From positions 62,001-126,000 of the forward strand of contig CAMDAD010000001.1 of the NCBI GenBank assembly GCA_945888515.1: DNA of 64,000 nt, read 5' to 3'. The notes below the pieces were generated by a model. It worked only from the letters and a program-made list of their open reading frames with translations, searched no databases and was not told where the DNA came from. This DNA is from Akkermansia muciniphila (GTDB lineage: Bacteria > Verrucomicrobiota > Verrucomicrobiia > Verrucomicrobiales > Akkermansiaceae). The position numbers and the translations under genes were made by a program. Shown here one piece after another: positions 321 to 28,356 of this stretch (its first letter is position 1; every line of letters begins with the position of its first letter).

Positions 321-548
321 GATGGGTAATAGTAAGAAAAAAACTTTTAGACAGTATTACGTTATACAGAAGGCTATGTGGTTAACCTACACCACATCGT
401 CGCGTGTAGATTAAGAAAATCAATCGCGGAAAGCCCGTTATGACCTGTGATTCTACTTCGCTTTTAGCTACGAAGGGACGCCTTACTGCTTTGCTAAATC
501 TACGAATTACTAGGGAGTGAAAAGCCTATAACGTTATCAATTAAAATT

Positions 549-698
549 TTCTCTACGCTGCCGCTCTTGGTCGATTTTGCGAGTCAAAAGCAAAAAACCT
601 TTCGTGACGTGGCTTCTGTCGTAAGGTGCGGGTGAGGCACGAGAGAAGAAAAGCAGATTTGCGTGAAAAGTTCAATTTAAAATGAACAAAAATGAAAA
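549..698 (-). repeat. Leader repeat copy 1 (~150 bp) with GTTCA-N8-TGAAC palindrome and ops-like core
   Basis: About 10 differences by hand count against 9287-9436; lies upstream of the minus-strand sugar dehydrogenase starting at 320. Confidence 0.9.
551..566 (-). promoter_or_regulatory. ops-like element (GAGCGGCAGCGTAGAG)
   Basis: Minus-strand CGACCAAGAGCGGCAGCGTAGAG aligns with CGACCAAGGGCGGTAGCGTAGG upstream of glf and resembles the E. coli ops core GGCGGTAGCGT. Confidence 0.5.
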
Positions 699-5438: not shown

Positions 5439-5440
5439 TG

Positions 5441-5467
5441 CGGAGGTCGGAGGTCGGAGGTCGGAGA
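5441..5467. repeat. Short heptamer array (CGGAGGT)n
   Basis: Direct reading, 3-4 units, at the junction of two gene remnants. Confidence 0.9.
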
Positions 5468-5889: not shown

Positions 5890-6266
5890 TCGTCAATCGA
5901 TCAGGTGGATTGACGATTGAGGACTTTTGATTTTTGATTTGAAGAAGGGTAGGGCGCGATCCGGCTCGGTTTGATTCGCGCGCCCCGCATGGCTGGCTCA
6001 ACCCTGCGGAGCACATCGCGTCCGCTCCTGTTCAAAAGGGTTCCGGGCCACGCGCTTTTTGCCGGGAGCGCTGGTGAAAGAGATGTGAACGGGTGGTCTA
6101 ATGAAAGCCGGAACGTCTTTTCTTTGGCTTGATCGTTCGCGTTCCTTTCGCCGGTTCTCCCGGCGGTGGAACCCTACCTTTCGTTCGCTGGTTCCTGCGG
6201 CCCGGGCTTCGCTAGGGCTATGCCAGGCGAGCTGGTGGAACCCTGCCTGATTAGGGCGCTAGCGCC

Positions 6267-6905
6267 TTACTTGAGGGTGCGGATGGCGGATAAGATTTTA
6301 TGCACGACCGCAGGCCAGGTGTCGTTGCGGAGCGAGATTGGATCGGGCTCGGCGTTGGCGTCGTCGAACCAGGCGAGACTTCGGATCACCATCATGAGGC
6401 TGGCGGGGCGATATTTCGCTTGGTAGTGGTCGATCAGGGTTTGGAGGGGTAAGTGATCGAGCAAGGTGGCAAGATCGTAAAAATCTTTTTTGCTGCCGCG
6501 GTTCGAGACGGCATTGAGTTTCATCGCCGCGACGTCTTGGAGTGACCATAATTTGATTCCTTGGATGAGGTCGTCATCGGCAAGCTTGGGGTAAGCATGT
6601 TTGAGAAACTCCACTTTGACGCCGTCGATGAAGAGTTGGAGGGTTCCTTCGGCCAGTCCGGTGATGGATTCAGGGCCGGTGCCAAGTTGGTGCGCCAAGG
6701 TGGCGGGCTCGAAGTGGGTGGTCGTGAAAAAGTCGAGATCGATTGAGAGCCGGTGTCCGAGTCGGAGAGCCAGGGAGGTTCCGCCGGCCAGCGCGAAGCC
6801 TGCGGTCGTGGTTTTTGACTGCAAGTCGGTGAGGACGTTGAGTAGATTCAGAGGAACGGCGGAGGTGTGGAGCATCGAAAAGCGGAGGAGGGTAGATCGA
6901 ACCAA
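6267..6905 (-). CDS. AbiEii/DUF1814-like nucleotidyltransferase toxin
   Basis: FALAGGTSLALRLGHRLSIDLDFF... KKDFYDLATLL. Confidence 0.85.
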   Translation of the reverse strand: MVRSTLLRFSMLHTSAVPLNLLNVLTDLQSKTTTAGFALAGGTSLALRLGHRLSIDLDFFTTTHFEPATLAHQLGTGPESITGLAEGTLQLFIDGVKVEFLKHAYPKLADDDLIQGIKLWSLQDVAAMKLNAVSNRGSKKDFYDLATLLDHLPLQTLIDHYQAKYRPASLMMVIRSLAWFDDANAEPDPISLRNDTWPAVVHKILSAIRTLK

Positions 6906-7117
6906 ACCTTGCAGAATGCGAGGGCGCGGGGTTGGAGCGAGCGGATGCCAGTGACGATTTCCGCCAAGCGGTCTTTGCCATAGTAACGGACCAGTGCCTG
7001 CCAGTCCGGCCAGTCGCCGTATTCAAGGACGCGGCGGGCGAGCCATGCGGCGTGTGTCTCAAAGTCGATGTCCTCGGCGCGAATGTCCCAGAAAAGATGC
7101 GGTGAGAGGGGGGGCAT
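6848..7117 (-). CDS. DUF6922-like partner of AbiEii NTase
   Basis: LFWDIRAEDIDFETHAAWLARRVLEYGDWPDWQALVRYYGKDRLAEIV; overlaps the AbiEii gene start. Confidence 0.75.
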   Translation of the reverse strand: MPPLSPHLFWDIRAEDIDFETHAAWLARRVLEYGDWPDWQALVRYYGKDRLAEIVTGIRSLQPRALAFCKVWFDLPSSAFRCSTPPPFL

Positions 7118-7122
7118 GGGGG

Positions 7123-7203
7123 GCGGAGGTCGGAGGTCGGAGGTCGGAGGTCGGAGGTCGGAGGTCGGAGGTCGGAGGTCGGAGGTCGGAGGTCGGAGGG
7201 CGG
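7123..7203. repeat. Heptamer array (GGAGGTC)n, ~11 units
   Basis: Direct reading. Confidence 0.97.
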
Positions 7204-7240
7204 GGAGGAAGAGGATTGAACCACTTGGTTTGGAATCTCT

Positions 7241-7579
7241 TTAGTTGCCGATGATGAGTGTCAATTGATGTTTCAGGGAGGGGATTTTTGATTTGACCAC
7301 GTCCCAAACGAGTTCTGGGTCTACGGAGTCGTAGCCATGAATGAGGCGGTTGCGGAGGCCGACGATGCGAGGTAGGTCGGTAATGATTTCTTGGAGAGAG
7401 TCGTCGTCTTTAGCTGCCGTGCCCAAGGCTTCACCGATGATTTCGAGTTGTCGTTCAACCGCGGAGCGTAAGAGTTGCGAAGCGAGGAAAGTATCGAGTG
7501 AGACTTCCTGCAGGAAGTCTTGAATCCGGGTGCACGCGGATTCGGCGTCTTCAAGCCGCTTGATGTTCCTTGGCATCAT
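7241..7579 (-). CDS. HepT HEPN toxin (DUF86)
   Basis: LRNRLIHGYDSVDPELVWDVV (RX4HXY). Confidence 0.9.
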   Translation of the reverse strand: MMPRNIKRLEDAESACTRIQDFLQEVSLDTFLASQLLRSAVERQLEIIGEALGTAAKDDDSLQEIITDLPRIVGLRNRLIHGYDSVDPELVWDVVKSKIPSLKHQLTLIIGN

Positions 7580-7877
7580 AGATGGGTAAGGCCTGCTGTT
7601 TGAGCGCTGCGGCGAAGCGGGGATTATGGATGGCTCCCGGTGTAAGAAGGTCCACTTTGCGGCCGAAAAGGGCTTCTAGGGATTGAACAAAATCCATGTA
7701 TCGATCTGCGTAGCCTGGTTCCCGAGTTGAGGAAAATTCAGCGATCAAATCCACATCGCTGGAGGAGGGATTGAAATCGCTACGAATGACAGAGCCGAAT
7801 GCATCTAGTCGCAGGACCTGATATTTCCTACAAAGATCTGCGATTTCGCGTGTGTGATCGGCAAGAATTGAGTTCAT
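7551..7877 (-). CDS. MntA-like nucleotidyltransferase antitoxin
   Basis: LDAFGSVIRSDFNPSSSDVDLIAEF; overlaps HepT. Confidence 0.9.
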   Translation of the reverse strand: MNSILADHTREIADLCRKYQVLRLDAFGSVIRSDFNPSSSDVDLIAEFSSTREPGYADRYMDFVQSLEALFGRKVDLLTPGAIHNPRFAAALKQQALPIYDAKEHQAA

Positions 7878-7882
7878 GGAAG

Positions 7883-7920
7883 AGGGCGGAGGGCGGAGGG
7901 CGGAGGGCGGAGGGCGGAGG
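7883..7920. repeat. Heptamer array (GGGCGGA)n, ~5 units
   Basis: Direct reading. Confidence 0.95.
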
Positions 7921-7965
7921 TTTGAGCGAACTTAGGATTTTACGACACTCAGAGCTGAGGCGATT

Positions 7966-8700
7966 TTATCCTTCAATGCCTTTTGAGCGTAGTCGGAGAT
8001 TTTTTTCTTCCCTAGCCTTAGCGAGTCGATTTCGGATCTCGTCAGCCGTTCGGAAGCCGATGAGATAATTGGCTTCGTTGGCGGTGAGGGCATCGGGTCG
8101 GATGCCGAAGATGTGCTCGATTTGGTTTTCATGGCGTGATTTTAACTTGGATAGGAGGCTTTGGGAAGGGTGAAACTCTTCGACACGTCCTGCGTTCACC
8201 AGCACGACGGTTCCAGCCACATTGCCTTCCCGCTCCTGGATATAATTGGCGAGTTCCGCAAGAGTGCCGCCCATGGTCGTCACGTCGTCAACAAGAACAT
8301 AATCTGCACCGGGGATGACGATTCCCTCAAAGTCGGGACGCGAAGCCATGCGCTCCATGGGATCCGCGCCGGTGTGGAAAACCCGGCTGATTTGCACGAT
8401 GTCGGTGTCGATTAACCCGCCGACGGCGGATGCACAGGCCGTGGCAAGCACCTGAGGAATGGCGTTGTCGCCTGTGGCTTCCCTAGCATGGGGGGCGACA
8501 TACCAGGCATCGGAAGGCAACTGACTTGAGATTTGAGCGATGAAAGAGAGGGCGACGTTCGAGACGAGATCCACGGCGGCTTCTGCGAATCCGGCTTTTG
8601 CCTGCGGGTAGAGTGGATGAGCCTTGAGCAAGGCATCTGTTCTCGCCGATGAGAAAGGTCGAACGATTCGCGATGGGAATGGGTGGGTCCGTACCGGCAT
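7966..8700 (-). CDS. Phosphoribosyltransferase-fold protein
   Basis: YVLVDDVTTMGGTLAELANYIQ (PRPP-binding loop); start uncertain. Confidence 0.7.
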   Translation of the reverse strand: MPVRTHPFPSRIVRPFSSARTDALLKAHPLYPQAKAGFAEAAVDLVSNVALSFIAQISSQLPSDAWYVAPHAREATGDNAIPQVLATACASAVGGLIDTDIVQISRVFHTGADPMERMASRPDFEGIVIPGADYVLVDDVTTMGGTLAELANYIQEREGNVAGTVVLVNAGRVEEFHPSQSLLSKLKSRHENQIEHIFGIRPDALTANEANYLIGFRTADEIRNRLAKAREEKNLRLRSKGIEG

Positions 8701-8724
8701 CGTTGGTGCAACAAAAGTGGTAGA

Positions 8725-9195
8725 TCAAATTCCGGCCCAGGAAAGGGATGTGGTGCGATCTGGCCTTTCGATCCTCGGGGTCTTGGAAATCATGCCGCAC
8801 TTGGGGAAGGACGAGACAGAGGTCGGAGGTCGGAGGTCGGAGGTCGGAGGTCGGAGGTCGGAGGTCGGAGGTCGGAGGTCGGGGTTCTGGATGTCGATCG
8901 GCGTGCCGGTCCGGAAGACTTCTTTTGCAAGAACGGTGCTTTCTTGGCTTAGATCGACTAGGTCGATATCGCGCCGGAGTTGCTCAGCCAGCCGGTTTGG
9001 GAGGTAAAAGCAAGTGACGGGGTCCGCGGCAACAGTGGGTAGGAAAGCGATATCGATGTCGCTCGAGGGATGTTCCGCAGGCCCGCCATACGAGCCGAAA
9101 AGGTAGATGGCCGCCGGAGCAAATGGCATCAAGGCATCCTTAACGAGCGAACATTGCGTATCGGTGAGAGGCATGGGAGTGAGGAAAATGGGCAC
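8725..9195 (-). CDS. MntA-like nucleotidyltransferase with heptamer-encoded C-terminal tail
   Basis: YLFGSYGGPAEHPSSDIDIAFL followed by (PPTSDLR)n encoded by the array at 8819-8883. Confidence 0.7.
   Translation of the reverse strand: MPIFLTPMPLTDTQCSLVKDALMPFAPAAIYLFGSYGGPAEHPSSDIDIAFLPTVAADPVTCFYLPNRLAEQLRRDIDLVDLSQESTVLAKEVFRTGTPIDIQNPDLRPPTSDLRPPTSDLRPPTSVSSFPKCGMISKTPRIERPDRTTSLSWAGI
8819..8883. repeat. Heptamer array (GGAGGTC)n, ~9 units, inside an ORF
   Basis: Direct reading. Confidence 0.97.
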
Positions 9196-9286
9196 GTAAC
9201 CCGAAAGATCGCAAGCGCTGGAACCAATGCGGAATGCGAAGGTCTGATCGTAAAAGAAATCCTAACGATTTTTTCCTGCGAAACAT

Positions 9287-9436
9287 TTCTCGACGCTGCC
9301 GCTCTTGGTCGATTTTGCGAGTCAGAAGCAAAAAACCTTTCGTGACGTGGGTTGGGTCGTGAGGTGCGGATGAGGCACGAGAGAAGAAAAGCAGATTTAC
9401 ACGAAAAGTTCAATTTAAAATGAACAAAAATGAAAA
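9287..9436 (-). repeat. Leader repeat copy 2
   Basis: Direct repeat of 549-698 in the same orientation; also followed by a heptamer array. Confidence 0.92.
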
Positions 9437-9458
9437 TTGTTCGGGAGTCGTCACTGGT

Positions 9459-9500
9459 CCTCTGACCTCTGACCTCTGACCTCTGACCTCTGACCTCCGA
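9459..9500. repeat. Heptamer array (CCTCTGA)n
   Basis: Direct reading. Confidence 0.95.
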
Positions 9501-9540
9501 CGTTCCGAATGACAGGGGTCAAGAGACAGGTAGCTTTCGC
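9492..9540. repeat. 49-bp direct repeat, copy 1 (gacctccgacgttccgaatgacaggggtcaagagacaggtagctttcgc)
   Basis: 2 differences from 10911-10959. Confidence 0.93.
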
Positions 9541-9884
9541 AATCGTATTTTTTGATTTTGGTAACTCATCAGGCAGCCGTTGAGTAATTCCGCAGAGAAT
9601 CGGTTCGCCATGTGTAGCAGCAATTTTTCGATGATATTGCTCTTGAGACCTTCTTCTCGTATCCGGATGACGGAGGGTTGATTCGCGCGCTGCCTTGCAA
9701 GAATCGAGTGAAAGTCGGCATCGAATGTCACGATGATGCGCTTCTTTCGCAGAGCATACGCCATAATATCCAGATCGATTGCCGCTGACATACCGATGTC
9801 CCCGACATGAATGGCATCGTGACCCGCATCACGTAACCGACTGCCTGTGCTTCGGGGAATGCCTTGATCAAGCAACCAGCGCAT
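9519..9884 (-). CDS. DUF5615 PIN-like toxin
   Basis: MRWLLDQGIPRSTGSRLRDAGHDAIHVGDIGM...IIVTFDADF. Confidence 0.85.
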   Translation of the reverse strand: MRWLLDQGIPRSTGSRLRDAGHDAIHVGDIGMSAAIDLDIMAYALRKKRIIVTFDADFHSILARQRANQPSVIRIREEGLKSNIIEKLLLHMANRFSAELLNGCLMSYQNQKIRLRKLPVS

Positions 9885-10110
9885 CGGGATCGAGCGTATA
9901 GATAGCGTCAGGGAGTTGGGATGCTGCGAAATGCAGGGCTTGGCGGATATCTTCGTCTTCGATTTCCGGATATTCTCTTAGGCGTTCCACGCGGTCTGTG
10001 TAAAGCGCTGCAATTTCGAGCGCCCGCCGCACGGTGATGCGGAGGTTTCTCAAACACGGCTGTCCATTCATGACTTCTGGGTTGACGGTAATTCGATCAA
10101 GAGATTTCAT
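9868..10110 (-). CDS. DUF433 antitoxin
   Basis: ITVNPEVMNGQPCLRNLRITVRRALEIAA; overlaps the DUF5615 gene. Confidence 0.87.
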   Translation of the reverse strand: MKSLDRITVNPEVMNGQPCLRNLRITVRRALEIAALYTDRVERLREYPEIEDEDIRQALHFAASQLPDAIYTLDPDALVA

Positions 10111-11852: not shown

Positions 11853-12632
11853 TTACCGACTTACCGACTTACTCTCTTTCCTGAGATCGCGGAGGAGTTG
11901 GTAGGCGAAGATGCTGTTGTAAGTGAAGTAGCGTTTGAAAAGCCGCTTGGGCTCCATGAGGAGGCGGAAGAGCCACTCCATCCCGATTTTTTGGACGAAC
12001 CGAGGTGCCTGCCGCACTTCGCCAGCGTGAAAGGCGAAGGCCGCGCCGATCCCAAAGTATACGGCGGGGGGAAGAAGATGTTTGTGCGCAGCGATCCATT
12101 TTTCTTGTTTCGGGCAACCTAGGCCTACCCACACCAGATTGGCTCCGCTCTGGCGTATCATTTCAGCGATGCGTTCGCTCTCCCCCACTGGCCAGCTGCC
12201 GAATGGAGGTGAGTAAGAACCTGCGATGACGGAGTGCGTAAATTTTTCTCGGAAGTGCGATTGCAATTTTTGGAGTGTCTCATTTTTTCCTCCTAAAAAG
12301 TAGTGTCGATAGAGACTGTGTGCGGTATCAGTCCGCGCGAAAGTTTCCTGCATCAGGGTGGGACCATACACGCGATCAGTGAGGCGCTGGGCGACAGGGA
12401 GTTGGGCATTGAGCGCCCAAACGAGAGGCATGCCATCGGGACAAATCAGGTCGAACTCCCCCATCGCTCTGGCAAATTCCGGATCTTGATGAGTCAGGGC
12501 CGCCACGTGGGTGTTGGCTGCTTCTACGGCATAGGCGCGATCTTGTTTTTGAGCACGCTCTAGGATCCAATCGATGGCATCTTGGTAGTTCGTCACCGCG
12601 ATGGGAAGGCCGATGACAGGGAGCGAGAGCAT
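11853..12632 (-). CDS. WecG/TagA/CpsF family glycosyltransferase
   Basis: NTHVAALTHQDPEFARAMGEFDLICPDGMPLVWA; GLGCPKQEKWI. Confidence 0.92.
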   Translation of the reverse strand: MLSLPVIGLPIAVTNYQDAIDWILERAQKQDRAYAVEAANTHVAALTHQDPEFARAMGEFDLICPDGMPLVWALNAQLPVAQRLTDRVYGPTLMQETFARTDTAHSLYRHYFLGGKNETLQKLQSHFREKFTHSVIAGSYSPPFGSWPVGESERIAEMIRQSGANLVWVGLGCPKQEKWIAAHKHLLPPAVYFGIGAAFAFHAGEVRQAPRFVQKIGMEWLFRLLMEPKRLFKRYFTYNSIFAYQLLRDLRKESKSVSR

Positions 12633-12762: not shown

Positions 12763-13965
12763 TCAGATGGGACCACCACGGATCCATGAAGTGATCACGC
12801 GCACGACCTCATCGAGTTGCTGTTGCGTTAGCTCGGCGTAGATGGGGATGCTGAGAACTTCGGTGGCCAGGCGATGAGCGATTTCGCAGTCGCTGCGGCT
12901 CGCATCTGGGAGATGGGCGAAGCATTCCTGCTGATCCATGGTGAGTGGATAATAGACCTCGCAACCGATGCCTTTTTCCATCAGCTGCGCCTTGAGGGCA
13001 TCGCGCTGGCCCTCGCCGATGACGCGGAGGGTGTATTGATTCCAGATGTGCGTGTTGTGCGCGTAGGAGACGGGAAGGATGATCTTCGCATTTGTTTCGG
13101 CCAGCCAGTCGTTTTGTCGGGTGAAACATTGGCAGTGCGCGGGATCGGCGACGATGACACCGGGAAGCTCTGAAAATTTTTCCGTGTAATACGCGGCATT
13201 GCGCTGGCGTCCTGCGGTGAAGGAATCATATTCGGCCAGCTTGACTCGCAAGAGCGCGGCTTGGAGAGTGTCCATGCGGAAATTTCCGCCAACGACCGAG
13301 TGAAAGTATTTCGGCTGCATGCCGTGGTTTCGCATCATGCGGGCTTTTTCCGCGAGAGCATCGTCATGGGTGACGAGCAGTCCGCCATCGCCGAAACCAC
13401 CGAGATTTTTCGAGGGGAAAAAACTATAGGCACCGTAGTGGCCGATGGTGCCACAAGGTTTTCCTTTGGTGAGTGAGCCGATGGCTTGGGCGCAGTCCTC
13501 GATGACCCAGAGTTGGTGTTTGTCCGCGAGGGCCTGGATGGCATCCATGTCGGCGCTTTGACCGAACAAATGTACTGGCATGATCGCCTTGGTGCGCGAG
13601 GTGATTTTTGCGGCGGCTTTTTCGGCATCGATGTTGAAACAGATGGGACAAACATCGACAAACACCGGCGTGGCACCGGTGCGGGCTACGGAGCCGGCGG
13701 TGGCGAAGAACGTGAAACTGGGCAGGATGACTTCGTCGCCAGGACCGATGCCGAGGGCCATGAGGGCCATGACGAGGGCATCGGTGCCCGAGCTACATGC
13801 GATGGCATGCTTCACCTCTAGCATGGCGGCGCATTCTTGTTCGAACGCGAGCACATCGGGCCCCATGATGAACTGACCAGAGGCGAGCACGCGATCAAAG
13901 GCCTCTCGGAGTTTTTCCGTAAGCGGGTGATTTTGAGCGTTTACGTCGAGGAGCGGGACGGGCAT
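12763..13965 (-). CDS. DegT/DnrJ/EryC1/StrS sugar aminotransferase
   Basis: ACSSGTDALVMALMALGIGPGDEVILPSFTFFATA; likely start MPVPLLDVNAQN at 13965. Confidence 0.93.
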   Translation of the reverse strand: MPVPLLDVNAQNHPLTEKLREAFDRVLASGQFIMGPDVLAFEQECAAMLEVKHAIACSSGTDALVMALMALGIGPGDEVILPSFTFFATAGSVARTGATPVFVDVCPICFNIDAEKAAAKITSRTKAIMPVHLFGQSADMDAIQALADKHQLWVIEDCAQAIGSLTKGKPCGTIGHYGAYSFFPSKNLGGFGDGGLLVTHDDALAEKARMMRNHGMQPKYFHSVVGGNFRMDTLQAALLRVKLAEYDSFTAGRQRNAAYYTEKFSELPGVIVADPAHCQCFTRQNDWLAETNAKIILPVSYAHNTHIWNQYTLRVIGEGQRDALKAQLMEKGIGCEVYYPLTMDQQECFAHLPDASRSDCEIAHRLATEVLSIPIYAELTQQQLDEVVRVITSWIRGGPI

Positions 13966-14143
13966 GGTGTAGAATGCGGAAACGTAGAAGAAATGGGAAC
14001 GGCGAAATGACGCGACTGTTTTGCTTGAGGGAGCGCAGAGTTTTCGTCTGCTACTTCGTTTCTGAAATGACAATCGAAATTTCCATCGGCATTGGTGAGG
14101 CGCGCGTAAATCTCAGAAATTTTTTGTGAGAGTCGACGCTGTT

Positions 14144-15262
14144 TTATTCTCTCGGAGTTTGCACGGTATGCCCGTGTCGACGCAGCAACGCTGTCGCGCG
14201 GGCTTCCGCTAGGTCGTGCTGAACCATTTCGGCGCACATTTCCTCCACCGTGATTTCTGGTTGCCATCCCAGCTTTTCCTTTGCCTTCGTGGGATCGCCC
14301 AACAAAGTCTCGACTTCCGCGGGACGAAAGTAGCGCGAATCCACTCTGACAATCACTTGCCCTACCTGCAAGTCAGGCGACAGCGATGCGTCATGGATGG
14401 CAGCTATCGTAGCGATTTCATCGACGCCCTCACCACTGAAAGCGATTTCCAAGCCAGCCTCGGCGGCGGCCATGCGAACAAACTCGCGCACGGAAATTTG
14501 TTTGCCGGTGGCGATGACGAAGTCATCCGCCACTTCTTGTTGGAGCATCATCCACTGCATACGCACGTAGTCCTTGGCGTGGCCCCAATCGCGCAAGGAA
14601 TCGAGATTGCCCAAGTAGAGGCATTTTTCCAGGCCAGTCGCGATGTTCGCCATGGCGCGGGTGATTTTCCTGGTGACGAAGGTTTCCCCTCTTCGTGGAG
14701 ACTCGTGATTGAAAAGAATGCCATTGCACGCATACATGCCATATGCTTCGCGATAGTTTACCGTGATCCAGTAAGCATACATTTTTGCTACGGCATACGG
14801 TGAGCGTGGATGAAAAGGCGTCGTTTCCTTTTGAGGGATCTCTTGAACAAGGCCGTAGAGCTCGGATGTGGATGCTTGATAAAAACGAGTTTTCTTTTCA
14901 AGACCCAGGAAACGAATGGCTTCTAACAAACGCAGTGCACCCATCGCATCGACATCCGCCGTGTATTCAGGCACTTCAAACGAAACGGCGACGTGGGACT
15001 GAGCGCCTAAATTGTAAATTTCATCTGGCTGGATTTCACTCACCAAACGGATGAGATTCGAGCTATCCGTCAAGTCGCCGTAGTGGAGGCGAAAGCGACT
15101 ATTCTCGATCTGAGGATCCTCGTAAATGTGATCTACCCGCGCGGTATTAAACAGCGATGCACGCCGTTTGATGCCGTGTACTTCGTATCCTTTCTCGAGA
15201 AGAAATTCAGCGAGATAGGAACCGTCTTGTCCTGTAATGCCAGTGATGAGGGCTTTTTTCAT
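14144..15262 (-). CDS. gmd: GDP-mannose 4,6-dehydratase
   Basis: [46 protein letters not shown]. Confidence 0.96.
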
Positions 15263-16203
15263 GATTCAATACGTACTTTTCCTTGTTGCCATTCTTGGAG
15301 GAATGCTTGATAGGCCTCGGTTAATCCATGGCGCAAGGATGTTTTCGCCTGCCACCCGAGGGAGTGTCCCAGTGTCATATCAAGTAGTTTTCGGGGCGTG
15401 CCGTCGGGCTTGGTGGGATCGTTGAGAATCTGGCCAGTGAAGCCAATGATCTCGGCGATCAACTGTGTGAGTTCCCGAATGCTGATGTCTTTTCCGGTGC
15501 CAACGTTCACCCAGTCGGGCGGATCCGCATGCTCGATCAGATGGAAACAGGCTTCGGCGAGATCATCGACATAAAGAAATTCACGGCGAGGTGTGCCCGT
15601 GCCCCAGATGGTAATGGATTCGTGTTGCTGGACTTTCGCCTCGTGAATCCGACGGATCAGAGCAGGAACGACGTGGCTATTTTCCGCGTGATAGTTATCG
15701 CCTGGTCCATAAAGGTTGGTAGGCATGGCGGAGTGATAGAGAAGACCATACTGATGCCGGTAGGCTTGACAAAGTTTTAGGGCCGCAATTTTTGCGATCG
15801 CATAAGCTTCATTGGTTGGCTCCAGTGGAGAGGAAAGCAAACAACTCTCCGGCATCGGCTGCGGAGCGTGTTTGGGATAAATACAGGAACTGCCCAGATT
15901 CAGTAATCGTTGCACACCTGCACGGCGACTGGCCTCGATGAGATTCGTGGCAATCATCACATTCTCATAAAGAAACTCCGCCGGATACGTGTTGTTGGCA
16001 TGGATGCCACCGACTTTTGCGGCCGCGATCATGACCATTGCTGGTTGGTGATGTGCGAGAAACGAATTGACAGCCGATTGATCGAGAAGATTCAGTTCAT
16101 CACGCGTCGCCACGATGACCTCCAGATCTTGGCGCGACTGGGCCGCCCGGACGAGCGCGGAGCCTACCATTCCTCGATGACCTGCGATGTAGATTTTTTT
16201 CAT
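15259..16203 (-). CDS. fcl: GDP-L-fucose synthase
   Basis: [19 protein letters not shown]; overlaps gmd. Confidence 0.95.
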
Positions 16204-16244: not shown

Positions 16245-17627
16245 CTAAGCTTGGCCGATGCAGTAAAGGCGGAAACCGATGTCGCGCATTCGTTCCGCGG
16301 GAAGGATGTTTCGCCCGTCGAAGGCGAAAGCGGGCTTGAGCATGTTTTGATGAATCGACACAAAATCAAGATCGCGGAATTCATCCCACTCCGTCAGCAC
16401 CACCATAGCGTGGGCTTGCTCGAGAGCCTCCATGGGATCAGAAACGAATTGCAGGTGGCTCTGTAAAATCGACTCCGGCACGCCGACGTAAGCGAGATCC
16501 GCTAGGATCATCGACGCGGGGACTTTCGGGTCATAGATGCTGACGCGGGCATTTTCCATCAACAGATCGCGCACCACGTAGATGGCCGCGGACTCTCGGG
16601 TGTCGTTAGTATCTTTTTTGAACGCGAATCCGAGAACGCCGATTTTTTTTCCTGAGACCGTGTTGAAGAGAGTGTGAACAATGCGTTGGGAAAAGCGCGA
16701 CTTTTGCCAATCGTTCATGCGGATCACCTCATTCCAATAGCGCGCCACTTCTGGCAGGCCGAAGTGTTCGCAGAGATAGACGAGGTTGAGAATGTCCTTC
16801 TGGAAACACGACCCACCGAAACCAACTGATGCTTTGAGGAATTTCGGACCGATGCGGGAATCATAACCGATCGCTTTTCCTACCTCATCGACACTGGCCC
16901 CGGTCTTTTCGCAGAGAGCGGAGATCGAATTGATCGAAGAGATGCGCTGGGCGAGGAAGGCATTGGCGACGAGCTTCGAGAGCTCCGAGGACCAGGTATT
17001 GGTGGTGATGATACGTTCGCGCGGGATCCAGTGAGCATAGACCTGCACGAGGCTTTCGATCGCGGCGAGACCTTCGGGCGTTTGCTCGCCGCCGATGAGA
17101 ATGCGATCGGGATTTTCCATGTCCGATACGGCAGTGCCTTCCGCAAGAAATTCCGGATTCGATAACACCTGGAATTGTCCGGATTCGGAATTCGACTCGA
17201 GGATGGTGCGCATCGCCTCCGCCGTGCGAACGGGAATCGTAGATTTCTCTACCACGATGGTCGCACCTTTCGCTTCCTCCGCAATCATGCGCGCGGCGGA
17301 CTCCACATAGCATAAGTCCGCTGCCCGGCCAGCACCGGCGCCGTAGGTTTTAGTCGGCGTGCCCACAGCGACAAAAACCATGTCCGCCTCGCGAATGGCA
17401 GCGCGGACTTCCGTGCGGAAAAATAAGTTGCGATCGCGGCAATCATTGACGAGCTCTAACAAGCCCGGCTCATACACAGGAAGCTCTTGTGAGTTCCATG
17501 CGGCAATGCGAGCCTCGTTGAGATCGACCACGGTAACCGTGATATCGGGGCATTTCGCGGCGATCATCGCCATCGTGGGACCGCCGACGTAGCCGGCACC
17601 GATGCAGCAGATTTTTTTGATTGTCAT
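16245..17627 (-). CDS. ugd: UDP-glucose 6-dehydrogenase, eukaryote-like
   Basis: [55 protein letters not shown] at 17627. Confidence 0.92.
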
Positions 17628-17661
17628 AAGTAGTTTCGCAGAGGGGCAAATCGAAGAGATT

Positions 17662-18216
17662 TCACAGAGAAAGTATTTTTTGCCAAATCGCAGTGAAGTG
17701 GCGCGTTTGCATTTGCTCTTGTAAAAATTCGTTGGTGGTAATGCTCGAATCGTGCTCCAGAAGATTCGCGATGTCGCGCAGATGCTTCTCCGATCCACCT
17801 TCTTGAAAGAATTCTATTTTGCGAAGGATCACGTATTCGATAGGAGCAAAAGAAACTTCAACATCAGCGACGGCAACTCGTACCGGTCTTCGCATCGCCC
17901 ACTGATGCAGCGCGTCATTACCGCAGAGATATACGTCTGCTTTCAGCATGCTATGCAGCGATATGATAGTGAAATGTCCGCGTTGTGATCGCACACACTC
18001 AGCTTCCATGACCTCGCGCGGTGGCAAATAAAAATTTTCCTCGGGAAATGCTTCACTGAGTTTTTGGAGCTGCGTTCTGTTCATTTCCAGGATCAAATCG
18101 ATATCATTGGTCAGTCGCGGCTCACCATAGGCCATGGTGGCGACCGAACCGGTTACGAGGTATCGCAGACCGCTTTTTTCCAGTGGTGCGATGAACGTTG
18201 AAATCAAGTCAATCAT
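17662..18216 (-). CDS. Nucleotidyltransferase (DUF6036-like), TA-type
   Basis: [29 protein letters not shown]. Confidence 0.8.
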
Positions 18217-18487: not shown

Positions 18488-19429
18488 TCAGGAAATTTGG
18501 TCCCGGAAATAGGCAATCGTCTCGCGGATGCCGTCATCAAATGCCACGACCGGCTCCCAACCTAACAATTCTTTTGCCAGACGGATATCAGGCTTGCGGA
18601 CTTTCGGGTCATCGGGTGGCAGAGGTTTTTGATCGAGCACCAGAGGAATGCCAAATTGCTCCGAGACGGCCTCGGCGAATTGGCGGATGGTCATTTCATG
18701 CGGGTTGCCGCAATTGACCGGCAGATGGTAATCGCTCTGTGCCAATTTCCAGATGCCCGCGACAAGGTCGGAAACATAACAAAAGGATCGTGTTTGCGAA
18801 CCATCGCCGAAGATCGTCATCGGCTCTCCGCGCAAGGCCTGACCGATGAAGGCAGGAACAACGCGGCCATCATCGAGTCTCATCCGCGGACCGTAGGTAT
18901 TAAAAATACGAACAATTTTGGTATCGAGCCCATGCGCCCGATGATAAGCCATGGTGGCGGCTTCGGCATAGCGTTTCGCTTCATCATAGCAACTGCGCAC
19001 TCCGATCGAGTTCACATTGCCCCAGTAGCTTTCCGGTTGTGGATGAATTTCGGGATCGCCATACACCTCTGAGGTGGAGGCCACGAGGAACGTCGCACCT
19101 TTGCGCAAGGCAAGGTCGAGCGCGTTGTGAGTGGCATAGGATCCCGCCTTGAGCGTCTCGATAGGGATTTGCACGTAGTCGATCGGGCTGGCGGGAGACG
19201 CCATGTGAAAAATGTAATCGACCGGACCGTCTACATCGAAGGGCAAGGAGACATCTTGTTCGATGAATGAGAAATGCGAATGATCCGTTAGGTGCCCGAT
19301 GTTACGTGAGTGACCCGTTACGAAATTATCCAGAGCGATGACACGCAAGCCATCCGCGAGCAAGAGATCGATGAGATGCGAAGGCACAAATCCTGCCCCG
19401 CCGGTAACGACTGCTGTTTTTTGATTCAT
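18488..19429 (-). CDS. uxs: UDP-glucuronate decarboxylase (UDP-xylose synthase)
   Basis: [56 protein letters not shown]. Confidence 0.92.
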
Positions 19430-20610
19430 AGTGAGGAAGTGGAAGATGCTTGGTATTTCTGGATTAACTTTTCCGACTCGGTCAATGCCATCCCGGTCAC
19501 CTGATCCATGTTGTAGTAGCGGTAGGTGCCGAGGCGACCGATGAATGAGACGTTCGTCTCTTTTTCTGCGAGTTGGTGATAGCGTGCGTAAAGTTGTGCG
19601 GTGATGTCCGTTGGGACCGGATAGAACGGTTCTTTGTCCGGCGTCCAGTCCTCCGGAAACTCGCGGATCACTGTCGTGGCATCGATTTTCTGACCTGTCA
19701 CATGCTTGATCTCCACCGTGCGTGTATAGGGGACATCTAGGTCAGGATAATTCACTTGCAGCGCCGGCTGCCAGAACCCTTCTTTGCCGGAAATTTCCGC
19801 GCGCGCGCGCAATTCTTCGCCGCTATGCGTTTCGCGTTCGAAACGGAGGGAGCGATAGGGCAAGGATCCGTAACAGTGATCGTAATACTCGTCGATCGGT
19901 CCGGTGAAGATCATGTGCCGATACTCCCAGTTTTTTTGCTCATCTTTGTAGTCGACTCCTAAGCGAACTTCAAGGTTCGGCGAGTGGGCTATCATTTTTT
20001 CAAACAAGGCCGTGTAGCCGCGGAGTGGCATGGCTTGGAACGACTCCGTGAGGTAGCGGTCATCGCGATTCAAGCGGATGGGAATGCGACCGCAGACCGA
20101 TGCCTGCAACTCGCGAGGGTGACGTTTCCATTGCTTGAGCGTGTAGGGCTCGAAAAAGATGCGGTAAAAATCCCACCCCACTTGGCTCAGAATCACTTCC
20201 TCCGAATTTTGCGGATGCGCGATGTCTTGTTTGTGCGACTCAAGATATTCGCGCCACTCCGTCTCGGTGGACTCTCTTCCCAGCCATTCTTCAAAGGTAT
20301 TCAAATTGATCGGGAAACTCCAGAAGCGCTCTTGGGTAAAACTTTTGATTCGATAGGAAACCTCATGCCACTCAGTAAATTGCGAAAGGTATGCGACGAT
20401 GCGAGCGGAGTTGCTGCGAAAATAGTGAGGACCATACGGATGGATCAGCACTCCCGCTTGATCGTAACAATCATAGGCATTGCCGCCGATGTGATCTCGT
20501 TTATCGACCACCACACAACGGAATCCCGCTTGGCTCAGCCGCTCAGCAGCGACCAACCCGGAAAACCCCGCGCCTACGATCAAAAAATTAACTTGAGCTG
20601 AGGGTCCCAT
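19426..20610 (-). CDS. glf: UDP-galactopyranose mutase
   Basis: [42 protein letters not shown] at 20610 (TTG at 20628 also possible). Confidence 0.94.
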
Positions 20611-20633: not shown

Positions 20634-20649
20634 CCTACGCTACCGCCCT
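20634..20649 (-). promoter_or_regulatory. ops-like element AGGGCGGTAGCGTAGG upstream of glf
   Basis: Contains exact GGCGGTAGCGT on the transcribed-sense strand ~25 nt before the glf ATG. Confidence 0.65.
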
Positions 20650-20765
20650 TGGTCGCATGCCTATGTTGCGGCAAAACCTCTCGAAGAAATCGGAAGATGG
20701 ACGGAGATGGGAAATATCTCTGTGAACAAATTCGTTCGAAGCAACGGTATCCGCCGACCTATTTT

Positions 20766-20783
20766 GTTCAAGAAAAAATGAAC
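20766..20783. promoter_or_regulatory. GTTCA-N8-TGAAC palindrome (leader copy 3)
   Basis: gttcaagaaaaaatgaac; same architecture at 670-687 and 9408-9425. Confidence 0.55.
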
Positions 20784-22200: not shown

Positions 22201-25200
22201 TCAATTATCAAGAGGGGTGATGGGAAGTGCGATCACGCGATAGAATCGGGACGGAACATCTCGGGGATGGCTCATTGTTTTGGGCGCGCCGTTGTCAATC
22301 CATTGCGTCTTGTTCGCATTCGCAGTCACGGTGGGTGCAACACGAATCCATGTAGACAAGTCATGACTGTATTCCACGGCGTAGGAAGCACCTACCACCG
22401 AAGTCCATTCGATCAATGAGTCACCATTGAATAGCCTGATAAAGTTTACCGTAGGCGCATCGGTATTAGGAGCCTTGTTGGGCGGCAATGGCGTTGTCGT
22501 CGGTGGCACCAACGTATCCGTTGTGTAAACAGGATTCGGAAGAACCGCACCCTTACCGCCATTCGTGGAACTCAGTGGTTGATACAGCACCTCGATAGTG
22601 AAGGTAACAGAATCTCCATTTTCACCATTCTTGGATAAGATTCCGTCGTAACGTATTCCCCCACCCTGATCATTCGAATTGAACAGCGTAGCGCCTGGAA
22701 TCAACGTGACTTGAAAACGGAATCCATGAATCGCATGAGCATGCAAGTTCTCCGCTTCGATTTGCTGCTTGTAAAGTCCCGATTGACGGTCCAAGCGCAG
22801 TTCGGTCAGTGGGGTAAACTTGATTGCCTTGTAGCTCATCACATTGACAACAAAGAGCACTTGGTCCGGATCGATGCCAGGCGCGGTCGCCTCAACCACC
22901 ACCGGGTATTTGTTATCAGCACCGACCGCTGTATCATACACGGCAGGAACAACAAAAGCGAGATTGATTACGCCAGTGTCCACATAACTGCCTGCATCCA
23001 CTCCACCAACGACTCCGTAAGAACTGAATCCATTGAAATAGTCGCTGTAAGGAGAAATGACAGTAGTCCCTTCCATGACATAAAGCTCCACCACGCGATC
23101 CGGCACACGGGCCGTTCCTGCGTAGTCGCCACCGCCGGTATTGCTTGCCACCAGTTGGAAAATCTCCGTGCCTTCCTCGATGCCATCATTGACAAGCGCG
23201 ACACGAACTTGCAATTGACCACTTTCGGGAAGCGTAATGAATCCATCGACATAAGGCACCCACGATACTCCATCGAAGTATTCGATTCCAGGACCGTAGT
23301 CATTTTGTTTCGCTGTTGCCTCCTCGGTGCGGAGTGACACTTGCTGATTCGATGCTCCTGTGACGGTAAAGACAGCAAAACCGAGGCTCTCATGGACTGT
23401 AAGATCCGTAACGGTCAGAGGACGATCGTCGTCAAGAGGCTGCCCTGGCGGAAGAGCGGACACACCTGTCGTATTTTCCTCAGCAAAATAATTACCCGAA
23501 CCATTATCGAAAATGGTTCCCACACCCTCTTCCTGAGGACTTGGTTTACCGCCAGTATTTGTGGCTACGACACGGAATGTTTCGGGGCCGTCAGTTTTTA
23601 ACTCTTTCTCGGGAGACAGAGCCACGCGCACTAGCAACTTGCCAGTATTGTTCAGTTTGACGGGAACGCCTGATGAGTATACCACCCATTTACTACCATC
23701 GTAGTAGTGAAGGACTTCGAGTCCGCTGCTTTGTCCAGGACCATCCTGATCCGTCAGACTGAGCATGACTTGTTGACTAGCCGCGCCTATAACGGTGAAG
23801 ATAGCATACGGAGAACCTTCGTTGACGTCCACGACATCGATGCTCAGCACGCGGTCATCATCGAGGATGATGTTTTCGTCGAGTAGCTCCTGGGGAGTTG
23901 CGGGGTCGAGTGCGTCATCGATCCAGTAGTCGCCGGTGCCGTCGTCGTAGATGGTGCCGACTCCGTCTTCTTTGGCGCTCGCTTTACCGCCGGTGTTTGT
24001 TGCGACCAGACGGAAGGTTTCTGGTCCATCGACGTCGGTTTCTTGCTCGGGAGCAATCGCCACTCGCACACGCAGGCTTCCGGTGTTGTTCAGATTCACG
24101 ACATCACCTGTGTTGTAAACAACCCACTTCGTGCCGTCGTAGTATTGCAAGCCGGTAAGGTCTTTGCCGTCGGCGTTTTGATCTGCGAGGCTGAGTGTGA
24201 GTTGTTGGTTGGCTGCGCCGGTGATGGTGAACACGGCGAAAGGAGAACCTTCGTTGACGTCCACCACATCGATGCTCAGCACGCGGTCGTCATCGAGGAT
24301 GATGTTTTCATCGAGTAGTTCTTGGGGAGTTGCGGGGTCGAGTGCGTCATCGATCCAGTAGTCGCCGGTCCCGTCGTCGTAGATGGTGCCAACGCCGTCT
24401 TCTTTGGCGCTCGCTTTGCCGCCGGTGTTCGTTGCGACCAGACGGAACGTTTCCGGTCCATCGACGTCGGTTTCTTGCTCGGGAGCAATCGCCACTCGGA
24501 CACGCAGGCTTCCGGTGTTGTTCAGATTCACCACATCACCTGTGTTGTAAACGACCCATTTGGTGCCGTCGTAGTATTGCAAGCCGGTAAGATCTTTGCC
24601 GTCGGCGTTTTGATCCGCGAGGCTGAGTGTGAGTTTTTGGTTCGCCGCACCGGTGATGGTGAAGACAGCGAAAGTTGAGCCTTCGTTGACGTCCACCACA
24701 TCGATGCTCAGCACGCGGTCGTCATCGAGGATGATGTTTTCGTCGAGTAGTTCCTGGGGAGTCGCGGGGTCGAGAGCATCCTCGATCCAGTAGTCGCCGG
24801 TGCCGTCGTCGTAGATGGTGCCGACTCCGTCTTCTTTCGCACTGGCTTTACCGCCGGTGTTCGTTGCCACCAAACGGAACGTTTCGGGTCCATCGACGTC
24901 GGTTTCTTGCTCGGGAGCAATCGCCACTCGCACACGGAGAGTGCCGGTGTTGTTCAAGTTCACCACATTACCTGTGTTGTAAACGACCCACTTCGTGCCG
25001 TCGTAGTATTGCAACCCGGTAAGGTCTTTGCCGTCGGCGTTTTGATCCGCGAGGCTGAGTGTGAGTTGTTGATTGGCCGCGCCAGTGATGGTGAAGACAG
25101 CATACGGGGAACCTTCGTTGACGTCCACGACGTCGATGCTCAGCACGCGGTCGTCATCGAGGATGATGTTTTCGTCGAGTAGTTCCTGGGGAGTCGCGGG

Positions 25201-28200
25201 GTCGAGCGCGTCATCGATCCAGTAGTCGCCGGTGCCGTCGTCGTTGATCGTGCCAACGCCGTCTTCTTTGGCGCTCGCTTTGCCGCCGGTGTTCGTTGCC
25301 ACCAAGCGGAAGGTTTCGGGTCCATCGACGTCGGTTTCTTGCTCGGGAGCAATCGTCACTCGGACACGCAGGCTTCCGGTGTTGTTCAGATTCACGACGT
25401 CACCTGTGTTGTAAACAACCCACTTCGTGCCGTCGTAGTATTGCAAGCCGGTAAGGTCTTTGCCGTCGGCGTTTTGATCCGCGAGGCTGAGTGTGAGTTT
25501 TTGATTGGCCGCGCCGGTGATGGTGAAGACAGCGAAAGGTGAGCCTTCGTTGACGTCCACGACATCGATGCTCAGCACGCGGTCGTCATCGAGGATGATG
25601 TTTTCGTCGAGTAGCTCCTGGGGAGTCGCGGGGTCGAGTGCGTCATCGATCCAGTAATCGCCGGTGCCGTCGTCGTAGATCGTGCCGACGCCGTCTTCTT
25701 TGGCGCTCGCTTTGCCGCCGGTGTTCGTTGCGACCAAGCGGAAGGTTTCGGGTCCATCGACGTCGGTTTCTTGCTCGGGAGCAATCGCCACTCGCACACG
25801 GAGAGTGCCGGTGTTGTTCAAATTCACGACGTCACCTGTGTTGTAAACGACCCACTTCGTGCCGTCGTAGTATTGCAAGCCGGTAAGGTCTTTGCCGTCG
25901 GCGTTTTGATCCGCGAGGCTGAGTGTGAGTTGTTGATTGGCCGCGCCGGTGATGGTGAACACGGCGAAAGGAGAACCTTCGTTGACGTCCACCACATCGA
26001 TGCTCAGCACGCGGTCGTCATCGAGGATGATGTTTTCGTCGAGCAGTTCTTGGGGAGTAGCGGGGTCGAGAGCATCGTCGATCCAGTAGTCGCCGGTGCC
26101 GTCGTCGATAATCGTGCCGATGCCAGTTGCGGAAGTAATGCCCGGCTGAGTCGCCGTCAGCGTAAATGTCTCCGCATTTTCAAAATCCGTATCTTGCGTG
26201 ATCGCCACCCGCACCGATAAAACCCCTCCTGCGGGAAGCGCGACTTCGGAATTGGCCGTGTAATCCACCCAGATCAGACCGTTGAAATACTGCAACTGTG
26301 TTCCTAAGTCTGTGCCCAAGGTTGCATCACGATCTGTCGACGCGATCGTATTGCCGAGGGAAAGTGTCACCTTTTCACCTGCCACTCCACCCACTGCAAA
26401 CACCGCACGAGGCGACGCTTCGTTCACCGTCACGCTGGAGACCGTCAACCTGCGGTCATCATCCAAAACAGGATAACCCGCATCCGTGGGGAGACTCGGA
26501 GTGGATGTGTTGTTTTCTGTTAGGAAAATATCGCCAGTTCCGTCATCTTTGATTGTGCCGATACCCGTAGCTGATGTTCCCCCTGTGTTAGTGGCAATCA
26601 GAGTAAATGTCTCGGCGTTCTCAAAATCCGTATCCTGCGTGATCGCCACCCGAACCAACAAGACGCCGCCCACGGGAATCGTGACTTGCGCATTGGCGGT
26701 GTAATCCACCCAACTGACACCGTTGAAAATCTGCAACTGCGTGGCCAAATCCGTGCCCAGGGTCGCGTCACGATCCGTCGATGCACTGGTGTTACCCAAA
26801 GCGAGCGTCGCTTTCTGGCCTGCGGTTCCGCTCACTTCAAACACCGCGCGCGGCGATGCTTCGTTCACTGTCACACTAGAGACAGTGAGCGGCGGGTCAA
26901 CAACCGCGCCTGGACCCACCAAAAGCCATGTGCTCGTATCGGCTGTGTTCGTATTGTCAAAAGAACCGCCGGAAAGATCACTCGACGAGTTCTGATCGTG
27001 CCAGAGGAACTTGCTCTTGTCGAGAGAACTGGACTGCGATGACCATGCCCTGACTCCCGCACTCGCAAGGGCTGCAGTCAAACTCAATTTGCTTCGTGAA
27101 ATCGCGATCTCGAGTTGTCCACCGTTCACTCGAAACCAAGTGTCTTGCGAACTGAGAGACACATTCGTGTCATAGCCATCCCCTTTGGTCCCACTGCTGA
27201 TGTTTGAGGTAGTGATGCTAGAGCCGCCAACATCATTATTTGCATCTCGATAAAGCGAAAACCTAGACTGATTGTTAGTCCAAGCAGTCTGCGATAGAGT
27301 CCCATCTTCCTCGTGGAGATATTGCACCCAAAAGTCCGGACGGACATCCGTGGCTTTATCAACCTCAAGTTCGTAATAATAATAACCTTTATTGATGATC
27401 CCATTGACGGTCATCTTGAATATGATGAAATCGTCATTGTAGGTCAAATCTACTTGCTTGATGTCAAAGTTTCTCGGACCTCCGTTGGAAGTGTTACTGA
27501 ATAACAAGTTTTCATATACATCAGACGCGTAACTTTGCTCCGTGCCTGCGTTTCCAGGCAAATCAGAGGTAGCTTGCCCGTGGGCTGGGTTGGTTCCGTA
27601 TGATGAGAAAAAATAATCGGATTGGGTGCTTTGGGGCGTCCAAGTCGACGGTGGAGTCGCCGCTTCCACCGCAATCGGCATCCCGTCGATACTCAATACG
27701 CGATGGTCGGAGGGCGTAGAGGAACGAGCCATGGCGATTTGGGGAGTGAGCATCCGCTGGGTAAGCGCATGGGCGAAAGCTTTACCTTCGTCACCACAAG
27801 TGTCGGTCTGGTCGTTCAATCGACGATCGATCGCGTGACCCAATTCCTCCAGTATGACCGTTTCGAGCGCATCAGCCGAGGATCTTTCCGCCCACTGGCT
27901 GTTTATGTAGATTCTCTCCGTGTGCGAGTGGCTATCAGAAGCATAAGCCGCGAACAATCCGGCCATTTCCTCGTGTTTTCTGACGTCAAAATCCAGTGCA
28001 AAGCCCTTGCCGGCCATCAGATCGCTTCTCAACTCGGTGAGACGTTTCTCAAACAATTCGTGTGGTGTGCCTGTGTTGCCATAAATCTGCCTCAGCAGCT
28101 CAGAAAATTCTTCGTTGGCGGCCTTCTGGACTAAGAGACGATGAGTAACCTCAAGGGAATCGCACACCGCTTGACGTGACGCAGTTGAAACGCCTGCACC

Positions 28201-28356
28201 GATCACATTCATCGACCCAACGCGCATGGGAACAGCCCATGACTGCGAGCCATCCATGCGCCCATCGCGGGTTTTTTTCGCGAAAAACGCCATCGCCAGC
28301 GCTAGCCCTAGCAGGGCAAATAGACGAGTATACCAGTGGAAAACGATTAATTTCAT
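22201..28356 (-). CDS. Giant secreted Calx-beta-like repeat protein (2051 aa)
   Basis: Signal peptide, EELGHAIDRRLND near the N-term, tandem VLSIDVVDVNEGSPFAVFTITG repeats, C-term SYAVEYSHDLSTWIRV...FYRV. Confidence 0.85.
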   Translation of the reverse strand: MKLIVFHWYTRLFALLGLALAMAFFAKKTRDGRMDGSQSWAVPMRVGSMNVIGAGVSTASRQAVCDSLEVTHRLLVQKAANEEFSELLRQIYGNTGTPHELFEKRLTELRSDLMAGKGFALDFDVRKHEEMAGLFAAYASDSHSHTERIYINSQWAERSSADALETVILEELGHAIDRRLNDQTDTCGDEGKAFAHALTQRMLTPQIAMARSSTPSDHRVLSIDGMPIAVEAATPPSTWTPQSTQSDYFFSSYGTNPAHGQATSDLPGNAGTEQSYASDVYENLLFSNTSNGGPRNFDIKQVDLTYNDDFIIFKMTVNGIINKGYYYYELEVDKATDVRPDFWVQYLHEEDGTLSQTAWTNNQSRFSLYRDANNDVGGSSITTSNISSGTKGDGYDTNVSLSSQDTWFRVNGGQLEIAISRSKLSLTAALASAGVRAWSSQSSSLDKSKFLWHDQNSSSDLSGGSFDNTNTADTSTWLLVGPGAVVDPPLTVSSVTVNEASPRAVFEVSGTAGQKATLALGNTSASTDRDATLGTDLATQLQIFNGVSWVDYTANAQVTIPVGGVLLVRVAITQDTDFENAETFTLIATNTGGTSATGIGTIKDDGTGDIFLTENNTSTPSLPTDAGYPVLDDDRRLTVSSVTVNEASPRAVFAVGGVAGEKVTLSLGNTIASTDRDATLGTDLGTQLQYFNGLIWVDYTANSEVALPAGGVLSVRVAITQDTDFENAETFTLTATQPGITSATGIGTIIDDGTGDYWIDDALDPATPQELLDENIILDDDRVLSIDVVDVNEGSPFAVFTITGAANQQLTLSLADQNADGKDLTGLQYYDGTKWVVYNTGDVVNLNNTGTLRVRVAIAPEQETDVDGPETFRLVATNTGGKASAKEDGVGTIYDDGTGDYWIDDALDPATPQELLDENIILDDDRVLSIDVVDVNEGSPFAVFTITGAANQKLTLSLADQNADGKDLTGLQYYDGTKWVVYNTGDVVNLNNTGSLRVRVTIAPEQETDVDGPETFRLVATNTGGKASAKEDGVGTINDDGTGDYWIDDALDPATPQELLDENIILDDDRVLSIDVVDVNEGSPYAVFTITGAANQQLTLSLADQNADGKDLTGLQYYDGTKWVVYNTGNVVNLNNTGTLRVRVAIAPEQETDVDGPETFRLVATNTGGKASAKEDGVGTIYDDGTGDYWIEDALDPATPQELLDENIILDDDRVLSIDVVDVNEGSTFAVFTITGAANQKLTLSLADQNADGKDLTGLQYYDGTKWVVYNTGDVVNLNNTGSLRVRVAIAPEQETDVDGPETFRLVATNTGGKASAKEDGVGTIYDDGTGDYWIDDALDPATPQELLDENIILDDDRVLSIDVVDVNEGSPFAVFTITGAANQQLTLSLADQNADGKDLTGLQYYDGTKWVVYNTGDVVNLNNTGSLRVRVAIAPEQETDVDGPETFRLVATNTGGKASAKEDGVGTIYDDGTGDYWIDDALDPATPQELLDENIILDDDRVLSIDVVDVNEGSPYAIFTVIGAASQQVMLSLTDQDGPGQSSGLEVLHYYDGSKWVVYSSGVPVKLNNTGKLLVRVALSPEKELKTDGPETFRVVATNTGGKPSPQEEGVGTIFDNGSGNYFAEENTTGVSALPPGQPLDDDRPLTVTDLTVHESLGFAVFTVTGASNQQVSLRTEEATAKQNDYGPGIEYFDGVSWVPYVDGFITLPESGQLQVRVALVNDGIEEGTEIFQLVASNTGGGDYAGTARVPDRVVELYVMEGTTVISPYSDYFNGFSSYGVVGGVDAGSYVDTGVINLAFVVPAVYDTAVGADNKYPVVVEATAPGIDPDQVLFVVNVMSYKAIKFTPLTELRLDRQSGLYKQQIEAENLHAHAIHGFRFQVTLIPGATLFNSNDQGGGIRYDGILSKNGENGDSVTFTIEVLYQPLSSTNGGKGAVLPNPVYTTDTLVPPTTTPLPPNKAPNTDAPTVNFIRLFNGDSLIEWTSVVGASYAVEYSHDLSTWIRVAPTVTANANKTQWIDNGAPKTMSHPRDVPSRFYRVIALPITPLDN
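23838..26100 (-). repeat. 432-bp (144-aa) tandem coding repeats, ~5 near-identical units plus divergent flanking units
   Basis: DNA landmark (cagcacgcggtc) recurs at exact 432-bp spacing: 23844, 24276, 24708, 25140, 25572, 26004. Confidence 0.93.

Follow-up and report, generated by a model that had tools for sequence, protein, structure and literature searches.

The question raised by this locus is whether the DNA in front of glf, the first gene of a polysaccharide operon in Akkermansia muciniphila, carries an element of the ops type known from E. coli, and which protein would act on it. All coordinates refer to the window, by which we mean the whole 64,000-nt stretch of DNA that was analysed (GCA_945888515.1, CAMDAD010000001.1), part of a genome of 3.36 Mb in total, and the features are collected in Table 1. 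Read on the minus strand, the glf leader runs TTGTTCATTTTTTCTTGAACAA ... GGTTTTGCCGCAACATAGGCATGCGACCAAGGGCGGTAGCGTAGGTTTTTTT, and the initial annotation, which had placed an ops-like leader with an exact GGCGGTAGCGT ahead of the gene, was correct in both strand and sequence (20647-20637). This 11-mer has one exact copy in the window, against 0.03 expected. The list of open reading frames places the start of glf at a TTG (20628); in same-genus orthologues, the start is the ATG at 20610, 26 bases past the motif. As set out below, we consider it highly probable that the element is transcribed as a 5' leader and recruits a specialised NusG paralogue.

Table 1. Features of the three leaders and of the glf operon (window coordinates)
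Feature	Position	Strand	Remarks
Dyad GTTCATTTTTTCTTGAAC	20766..20783	-	includes -35-like TTGAAC (20771-20766)
-10-like TACCGT	20744..20749	-	16 nt after TTGAAC
Hairpin + ops module GGUU-stem-loop-stem-NC-GACC-AAGGGCGGUAGCGU	20637..20678	-	R1 match 47.8 bits; covariation
ops core GGCGGTAGCGT	20637..20647	-	identical to positions 1-11 of E. coli ops
glf, UDP-galactopyranose mutase, first gene of operon	19426..20610	-	PF03275, TIGR00031 above cut-off; start by orthologues
NDP-sugar epimerase/dehydratase	18488..19429	-	
UDP-glucose/nucleotide-sugar dehydrogenase	16245..17798	-	
GDP-L-fucose synthase-like	15259..16203	-	
gmd, GDP-mannose 4,6-dehydratase	14144..15262	-	
DegT/DnrJ/EryC1/StrS sugar aminotransferase	12763..14073	-	
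WecG/TagA/CpsF glycosyltransferase	11853..12632	-	
Second leader copy	9281..9436	-	dyad 9425-9408, hairpin+ops 9337-9293; heads toxin-antitoxin-like island
Third leader copy	543..698	-	dyad 687-670, hairpin+ops 599-555; precedes second polysaccharide operon

The leader is a composite element, in which a GTTCATTTTNNNTTGAAC dyad is followed after ~90 nt by a covarying hairpin (GGTT-stem-loop-stem-NC-GACC) and then by AAGRGCGGYAGCGT. The dyad, which probably serves the leader as promoter or operator, has exactly three perfect matches genome-wide, all of them at the three leaders, and when leaders were compared side by side, most relatives were found to have the dyad with its TTGAAC 102-122 nt ahead of the ops core. 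The -10-like box takes the form TAnnnT in same-genus leaders, is weak and is not kept across the wider family, and a strict sigma-70 scan found no promoter. The third of the three common modules in the relatives' leaders, AAGGGCGGYAGCGT, directly abuts the 3' side of the hairpin, and the hairpin is present even at dyad-less loci that were found without requiring the dyad (e.g. L014, L023, L033 and L034). A terminator scan between ops and glf found none. A GTAGGTTTTTTT tract following the window's ops was considered as a terminator and rejected, as it is not kept in relatives.

Searching the whole genome for CGACCAAGRGCGGYAGCGTAG with up to 3 mismatches yielded three matches, all on the minus strand of the window (553-573, 9291-9311 and 20635-20655), and the reversed control under the same settings yielded none. 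The motif is intergenic, and the scatter through coding DNA against which the initial annotation had cautioned was not seen. The covariance model R1, which describes the hairpin and ops from 22 other loci with the window's three sites left out, scores these sites at 47.8, 42.8 and 42.5 bits, the next best match in the window reaching 9.2 bits. The second and third leader copies, neither of which the initial annotation had noticed, are 92% identical to each other over 156 nt. Between them lies a toxin-antitoxin-like island (1500-9900; MNT/Polbeta, HepT-like, AbiEii, DUF5615/PIN and DUF6036) that carries tandem repeats of the heptamer GAGGTCGGAGGTC. Elsewhere in the window, a 2051-aa open reading frame (22201-28356) contains about six tandem repeats of 432 nt that are 68-90% identical; it has no Pfam match that convinces and is perhaps a surface repeat protein.

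The leaders are associated with polysaccharide operons. Behind the leader at 555 lies an operon encoding a UDP-sugar dehydrogenase, a 2-epimerase, a Wzx-type flippase and glycosyltransferases, which extends beyond the window. When the downstream gene of a leader was taken as the longest open reading frame starting within 900 nt, a rule by which a few picks may be wrong, the 82 first genes obtained were mainly polysaccharide genes, including 21 NDP-sugar epimerases/dehydratases, 15 GLF, 7 DegT and 5 sugar transferases. The same set contains 5 APS kinases and 3 PAPS-reductase-like genes, all behind leaders of relatives. An adenylylsulfate-kinase-like gene (L005:106-699) is also found downstream of the NusG paralogue of the window's genome, and a link of these genes near leaders and paralogue to sulfated polysaccharides is possible.

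To what extent the resemblance to ops could be fortuitous is answered by the relatives. Across 97 genomes (the window's own and its relatives), about 50 motif sites were found when up to 2 mismatches were allowed, compared with 6 sites of the reversed control. R1 sites were detected in 68 of 97 relatives (E <= 0.01). Among 388 genomes sampled across the phylum, 43 carry R1 sites (E <= 0.001), and these belong to several other families of the same class as well as to families outside the class. When 84,980 species genomes were scanned for TTGAAC-gap-GACCAAGGGCGGYAGCG, 31 matches were obtained, 30 of which are in named Verrucomicrobiota; the remaining match, in a Pseudolabrys MAG (L091), is without dyad or hairpin and was judged to be chance. 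The names of these matches would by themselves point to Akkermansiaceae or neighbouring families for the window's organism. The motif is kept before orthologous glf genes and before other polysaccharide operons, as the initial annotation had led one to look for. The 11-mer alone is expected about once per genome, which would allow for a chance resemblance, but conservation already refutes it, and covariation, linkage and taxonomic restriction stand against it as well, such that we regard its likelihood as negligible. One relative (G056; L160 on C23 and L161 on C19) has arrays of ~130-nt repeats split by small open reading frames, resembling integron cassette arrays, in which ~640-nt repeated units bear the hairpin and ops module, with several equal-scoring copies in the genome. 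Carried on such cassettes, the leader could drive antiterminated transcription through the arrays.

The hairpin, which the initial annotation had missed, is nearly universal among these leaders, and its stem sequence is free apart from GGTT/GACC. With the arms anchored at GGTT and GACC only, 86% of inner-stem cells pair, compared to 57.6 +/- 2.1% when the 3' arms are exchanged between loci. In the covariation count, 93.4% of cells are paired (74.3 +/- 1.7 in shuffles), 45 double-change cells are present (12.9 shuffled), and the covariation score is 0.562 (0.170 shuffled), while slid control structures reach at most 52.9% paired. Column pair 7-22 alone appears as GC, AU, UA, UG, CG and GU. The energy of single-sequence folding is not unusual (z -0.60 and 0.08), and the case for the hairpin therefore rests on covariation. 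Since the last base of GACC precedes the presumed pause position by 14 nt, the hairpin would be expected to form at the RNA exit channel.

The initial annotation had further proposed that this lineage pairs the ops-like site with a NusG-family antiterminator and had suggested a search for a NusG paralogue. Besides the canonical NusG (on C2), the window's genome encodes one paralogue of 181 aa (G000 C14:3466-2927), which lies on another contig than the leaders and so would act in trans; it does not adjoin a leader. Against NCBIfam models it scores best with RfaH (TIGR01955, 75 bits), followed by UpxY (NF033644, 70.5), NusG (64.1) and LoaP (NF033641, 49), and it remains below all cut-offs tested (RfaH equivalog 144.5, UpxY 100 and LoaP 125 bits). 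The pairing of site and antiterminator is supported, by conservation and by the linked paralogues described below, but the paralogue is not an RfaH equivalog. RfaH is characterised by an autoinhibitory alpha-helical CTD that refolds; AlphaFold2 predicts an NGN domain and a beta-barrel CTD for the paralogue at locus L078, from a close relative (pLDDT 84.9, from a shallow alignment of 17 sequences). The highest query-normalised TM-score among the best structural matches of this prediction is to recruited RfaH (8phk, 0.60). In a tree of the NusG family, the genome's own copy groups with the linked paralogues in a single clade separate from canonical NusG (95/90); the branch of E. coli RfaH is long and its placement is uncertain.

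At about half of the loci examined, an orthologue 36-67% identical to the paralogue is encoded on the leader's strand and immediately precedes the leader, and the paralogue gene holds this position in 19 of the 30 named Verrucomicrobiota scan matches. The arrangement is seen in 24 of 86 paralogue-bearing relatives, whereas 0.013 would be expected by chance if each 4-Mb genome had two leaders. It recurs in genomes from other families, G127, G218 and G219 among them, and two of these genomes lie outside the class. In one family, divergent paralogues escaped the Pfam NusG model and were recovered with the A5 profile; the four apparent exceptions (G068, G083, G086 and G089) have such divergent paralogues, each directly upstream of a leader. 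Depending on the threshold, 28-37 paralogue-bearing relatives have no detectable leader. Of the ten relatives with canonical NusG only, nine are also without the leader, the exception being G032, and the co-occurrence of paralogue and leader has P = 0.006 or 0.0007 by threshold, values that are not corrected for relatedness. Small complete genomes of one genus of the same family (g3; G011, G035, G044 and G052) have canonical NusG only and no leader, which suggests joint loss of the two.

These patterns bear on two accounts that do without the paralogue. The leader could be a cis-regulatory RNA, such as a riboswitch or attenuator, with proximity to the paralogue reflecting co-location in polysaccharide loci; it is indeed a structured and conserved 5' leader, and in G032 it is present while no paralogue was detected. 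Nevertheless, so simple a hairpin leaves no room for a ligand pocket and is free in sequence outside GGTT/GACC, the paralogue is immediately upstream of leaders in many families, relatives without the paralogue are also without the leader, and the core equals E. coli ops, making this account improbable. Alternatively, the element might be a promoter and operator only, its dyad bound by a regulator and its downstream part serving as a pause or ribosome-loading sequence for canonical NusG. In some bacteria, NusG reads the non-template DNA of paused complexes, and the restriction of perfect dyads to the three leaders would fit such an account, but genomes with canonical NusG alone mostly lack the leader, and we consider it very improbable.

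Returning to recruitment of the paralogue, we would propose the following course of events. RNA polymerase would start near the dyad, the putative promoter, and make ~90 nt of leader; the nascent RNA would then fold the GGUU...GACC hairpin as the polymerase arrives at AAGGGCGGYAGCGT. There, the polymerase would pause, and the non-template GGCGGYAGC would expose a small loop of DNA in the manner of E. coli ops. The paralogue would recognise this loop, the hairpin or both, bind to the paused complex and stay on the polymerase as an antiterminator, rendering it processive through the long polysaccharide operon, with a possible additional role in aiding ribosome loading. This would be a third lineage, after those of E. 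coli RfaH and LoaP, with a defined covarying cis element and a probable cognate protein, often at the same locus. In Verrucomicrobiota, the leader also offers a tag by which polysaccharide operons can be located genome-wide.

How the paralogue might read the leader can be considered against the known contacts of RfaH. In E. coli ops, changes at G4, G5, A7 and G8 abolish RfaH recruitment and C3G and T6A lower it about threefold; the flipped T6 is held in a pocket of H20, R23, Q24 and R73, and the DNA contacts of RfaH are K10, H20, R23 and R73 (PMC5995543). At 23 loci found with R1, G2, C3, G4, G5, A7, G8 and C9 are invariant and position 6 is C, T or A, so that the bases of ops kept across phyla, and the freedom of T6, now become visible. 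Position 12 of the window's ops is A, where E. coli has the pause-promoting G12. Among 32 paralogues, K10 is replaced by Q in 26, R23 and R73 are replaced, and H20 is kept in 19. The freedom of T6 and the loss of its pocket would fit a shared loop that is read in a different way.

The loss of these contacts would suit a mode like that of LoaP in Bacillus, in which the RNA hairpin is the recruitment signal and the ops-like sequence only a pause giving time for binding; this is a sub-model of the recruitment explanation, and the confidence we place in the two overlaps. LoaP of Bacillus velezensis requires an RNA hairpin in its leader (PMC12691694), and a NusG paralogue with an RNA hairpin in the leader of long operons is common to both systems. 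The strong covariation of the present hairpin and its near universality among the leaders also speak for such a mode. In contrast to LoaP, however, the loops of the leader hairpins are not UNCG, no terminator was found in the leader between ops and glf, an ops core is present, and the paralogue scores far below the LoaP cut-off. Furthermore, the stem is free in sequence while GGGCGG-AGC is invariant, which places the sequence information in ops, and we find the hairpin-only mode doubtful. A reading to which we give slightly more weight, though still less than even odds, is that one monomorphic NusG paralogue in Verrucomicrobiota reads the RNA hairpin and the non-template DNA loop of ops together. 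Such a dual code, if true, would cross the LoaP mode with that of RfaH, the JUMPstart hairpin would gain a function, and ops-based recruitment would either predate the split of these phyla or have been transferred between them.

The JUMPstart RNA (RF01707) likewise has a stem directly 5' of GGGCGGUAGCGU, and CCA[A/G]GGGCGGTAGCGT is common to both (15 of 16 positions); in E. coli, the JUMPstart stem also abuts GGGCGGUAGCGUG. Searched with R1, the galF-rfbB JUMPstart of E. coli is found at 19.3 bits (E 1.5e-4). An Rfam search of the window site at the gathering threshold gave no match, and in a relaxed search the site reached 12.4 bits with RF01707, against a gathering score of 35 and scores of 60 and 55 for the E. 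coli sites; a miRNA match in the relaxed search was discarded as chance. Unlike JUMPstart, the leader has a GGUU/GACC stem with a 2-nt bulge, a longer variable stem and its own upstream dyad. With the present leader, the role of the JUMPstart hairpin becomes testable.

RfaH is on record for 23 of 117 phyla (~95% in Proteobacteria), and the E. coli protein was described as the sole representative with a known recruitment mode (PMC7593976). Within the openly accessible literature covered, no ops system was found to be described for Verrucomicrobiota, nor was any work found that connects Verrucomicrobia with both RfaH and ops or with antitermination of exopolysaccharide genes; papers that name RfaH along with Verrucomicrobia were off-topic. 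The system shares with RfaH/ops the GGCGGTAGCGT core in the leader of polysaccharide operons, the kept bases G4, G5, A7 and G8, and a NusG-family paralogue distinct from NusG. It differs in its phylum, in a paralogue ~25% identical to E. coli RfaH, under the RfaH cut-off and with K10, R23 and R73 not kept, in the free T6, in the predicted beta-barrel CTD, in a paralogue gene that often adjoins the target operon, and in having its own covarying hairpin abutting ops. Because defining features of both RfaH and RF01707 were tested and not found, we have not filed it as a member of either.

Two further systems are alike in gene arrangement. As with UpxY of Bacteroides, a NusG paralogue gene stands at the head of polysaccharide operons (in the relatives, not in the window's genome), but upxY lies downstream of its leader, whereas the paralogue gene here lies upstream. 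A 2026 preprint proposes monomorphic RfaH proteins encoded beside their operons (PMC13015549), and these monomorphic beta-RfaH proteins resemble the present paralogue in the predicted beta-barrel CTD and in a gene that adjoins the target operon; the text of the preprint is without Verrucomicrobiota, and the window's own copy is on another contig. Weighing these likenesses and differences, we conclude that the leader and its paralogue most likely constitute an RfaH/ops-like antitermination system, a variant within the NusG-paralogue leader systems.
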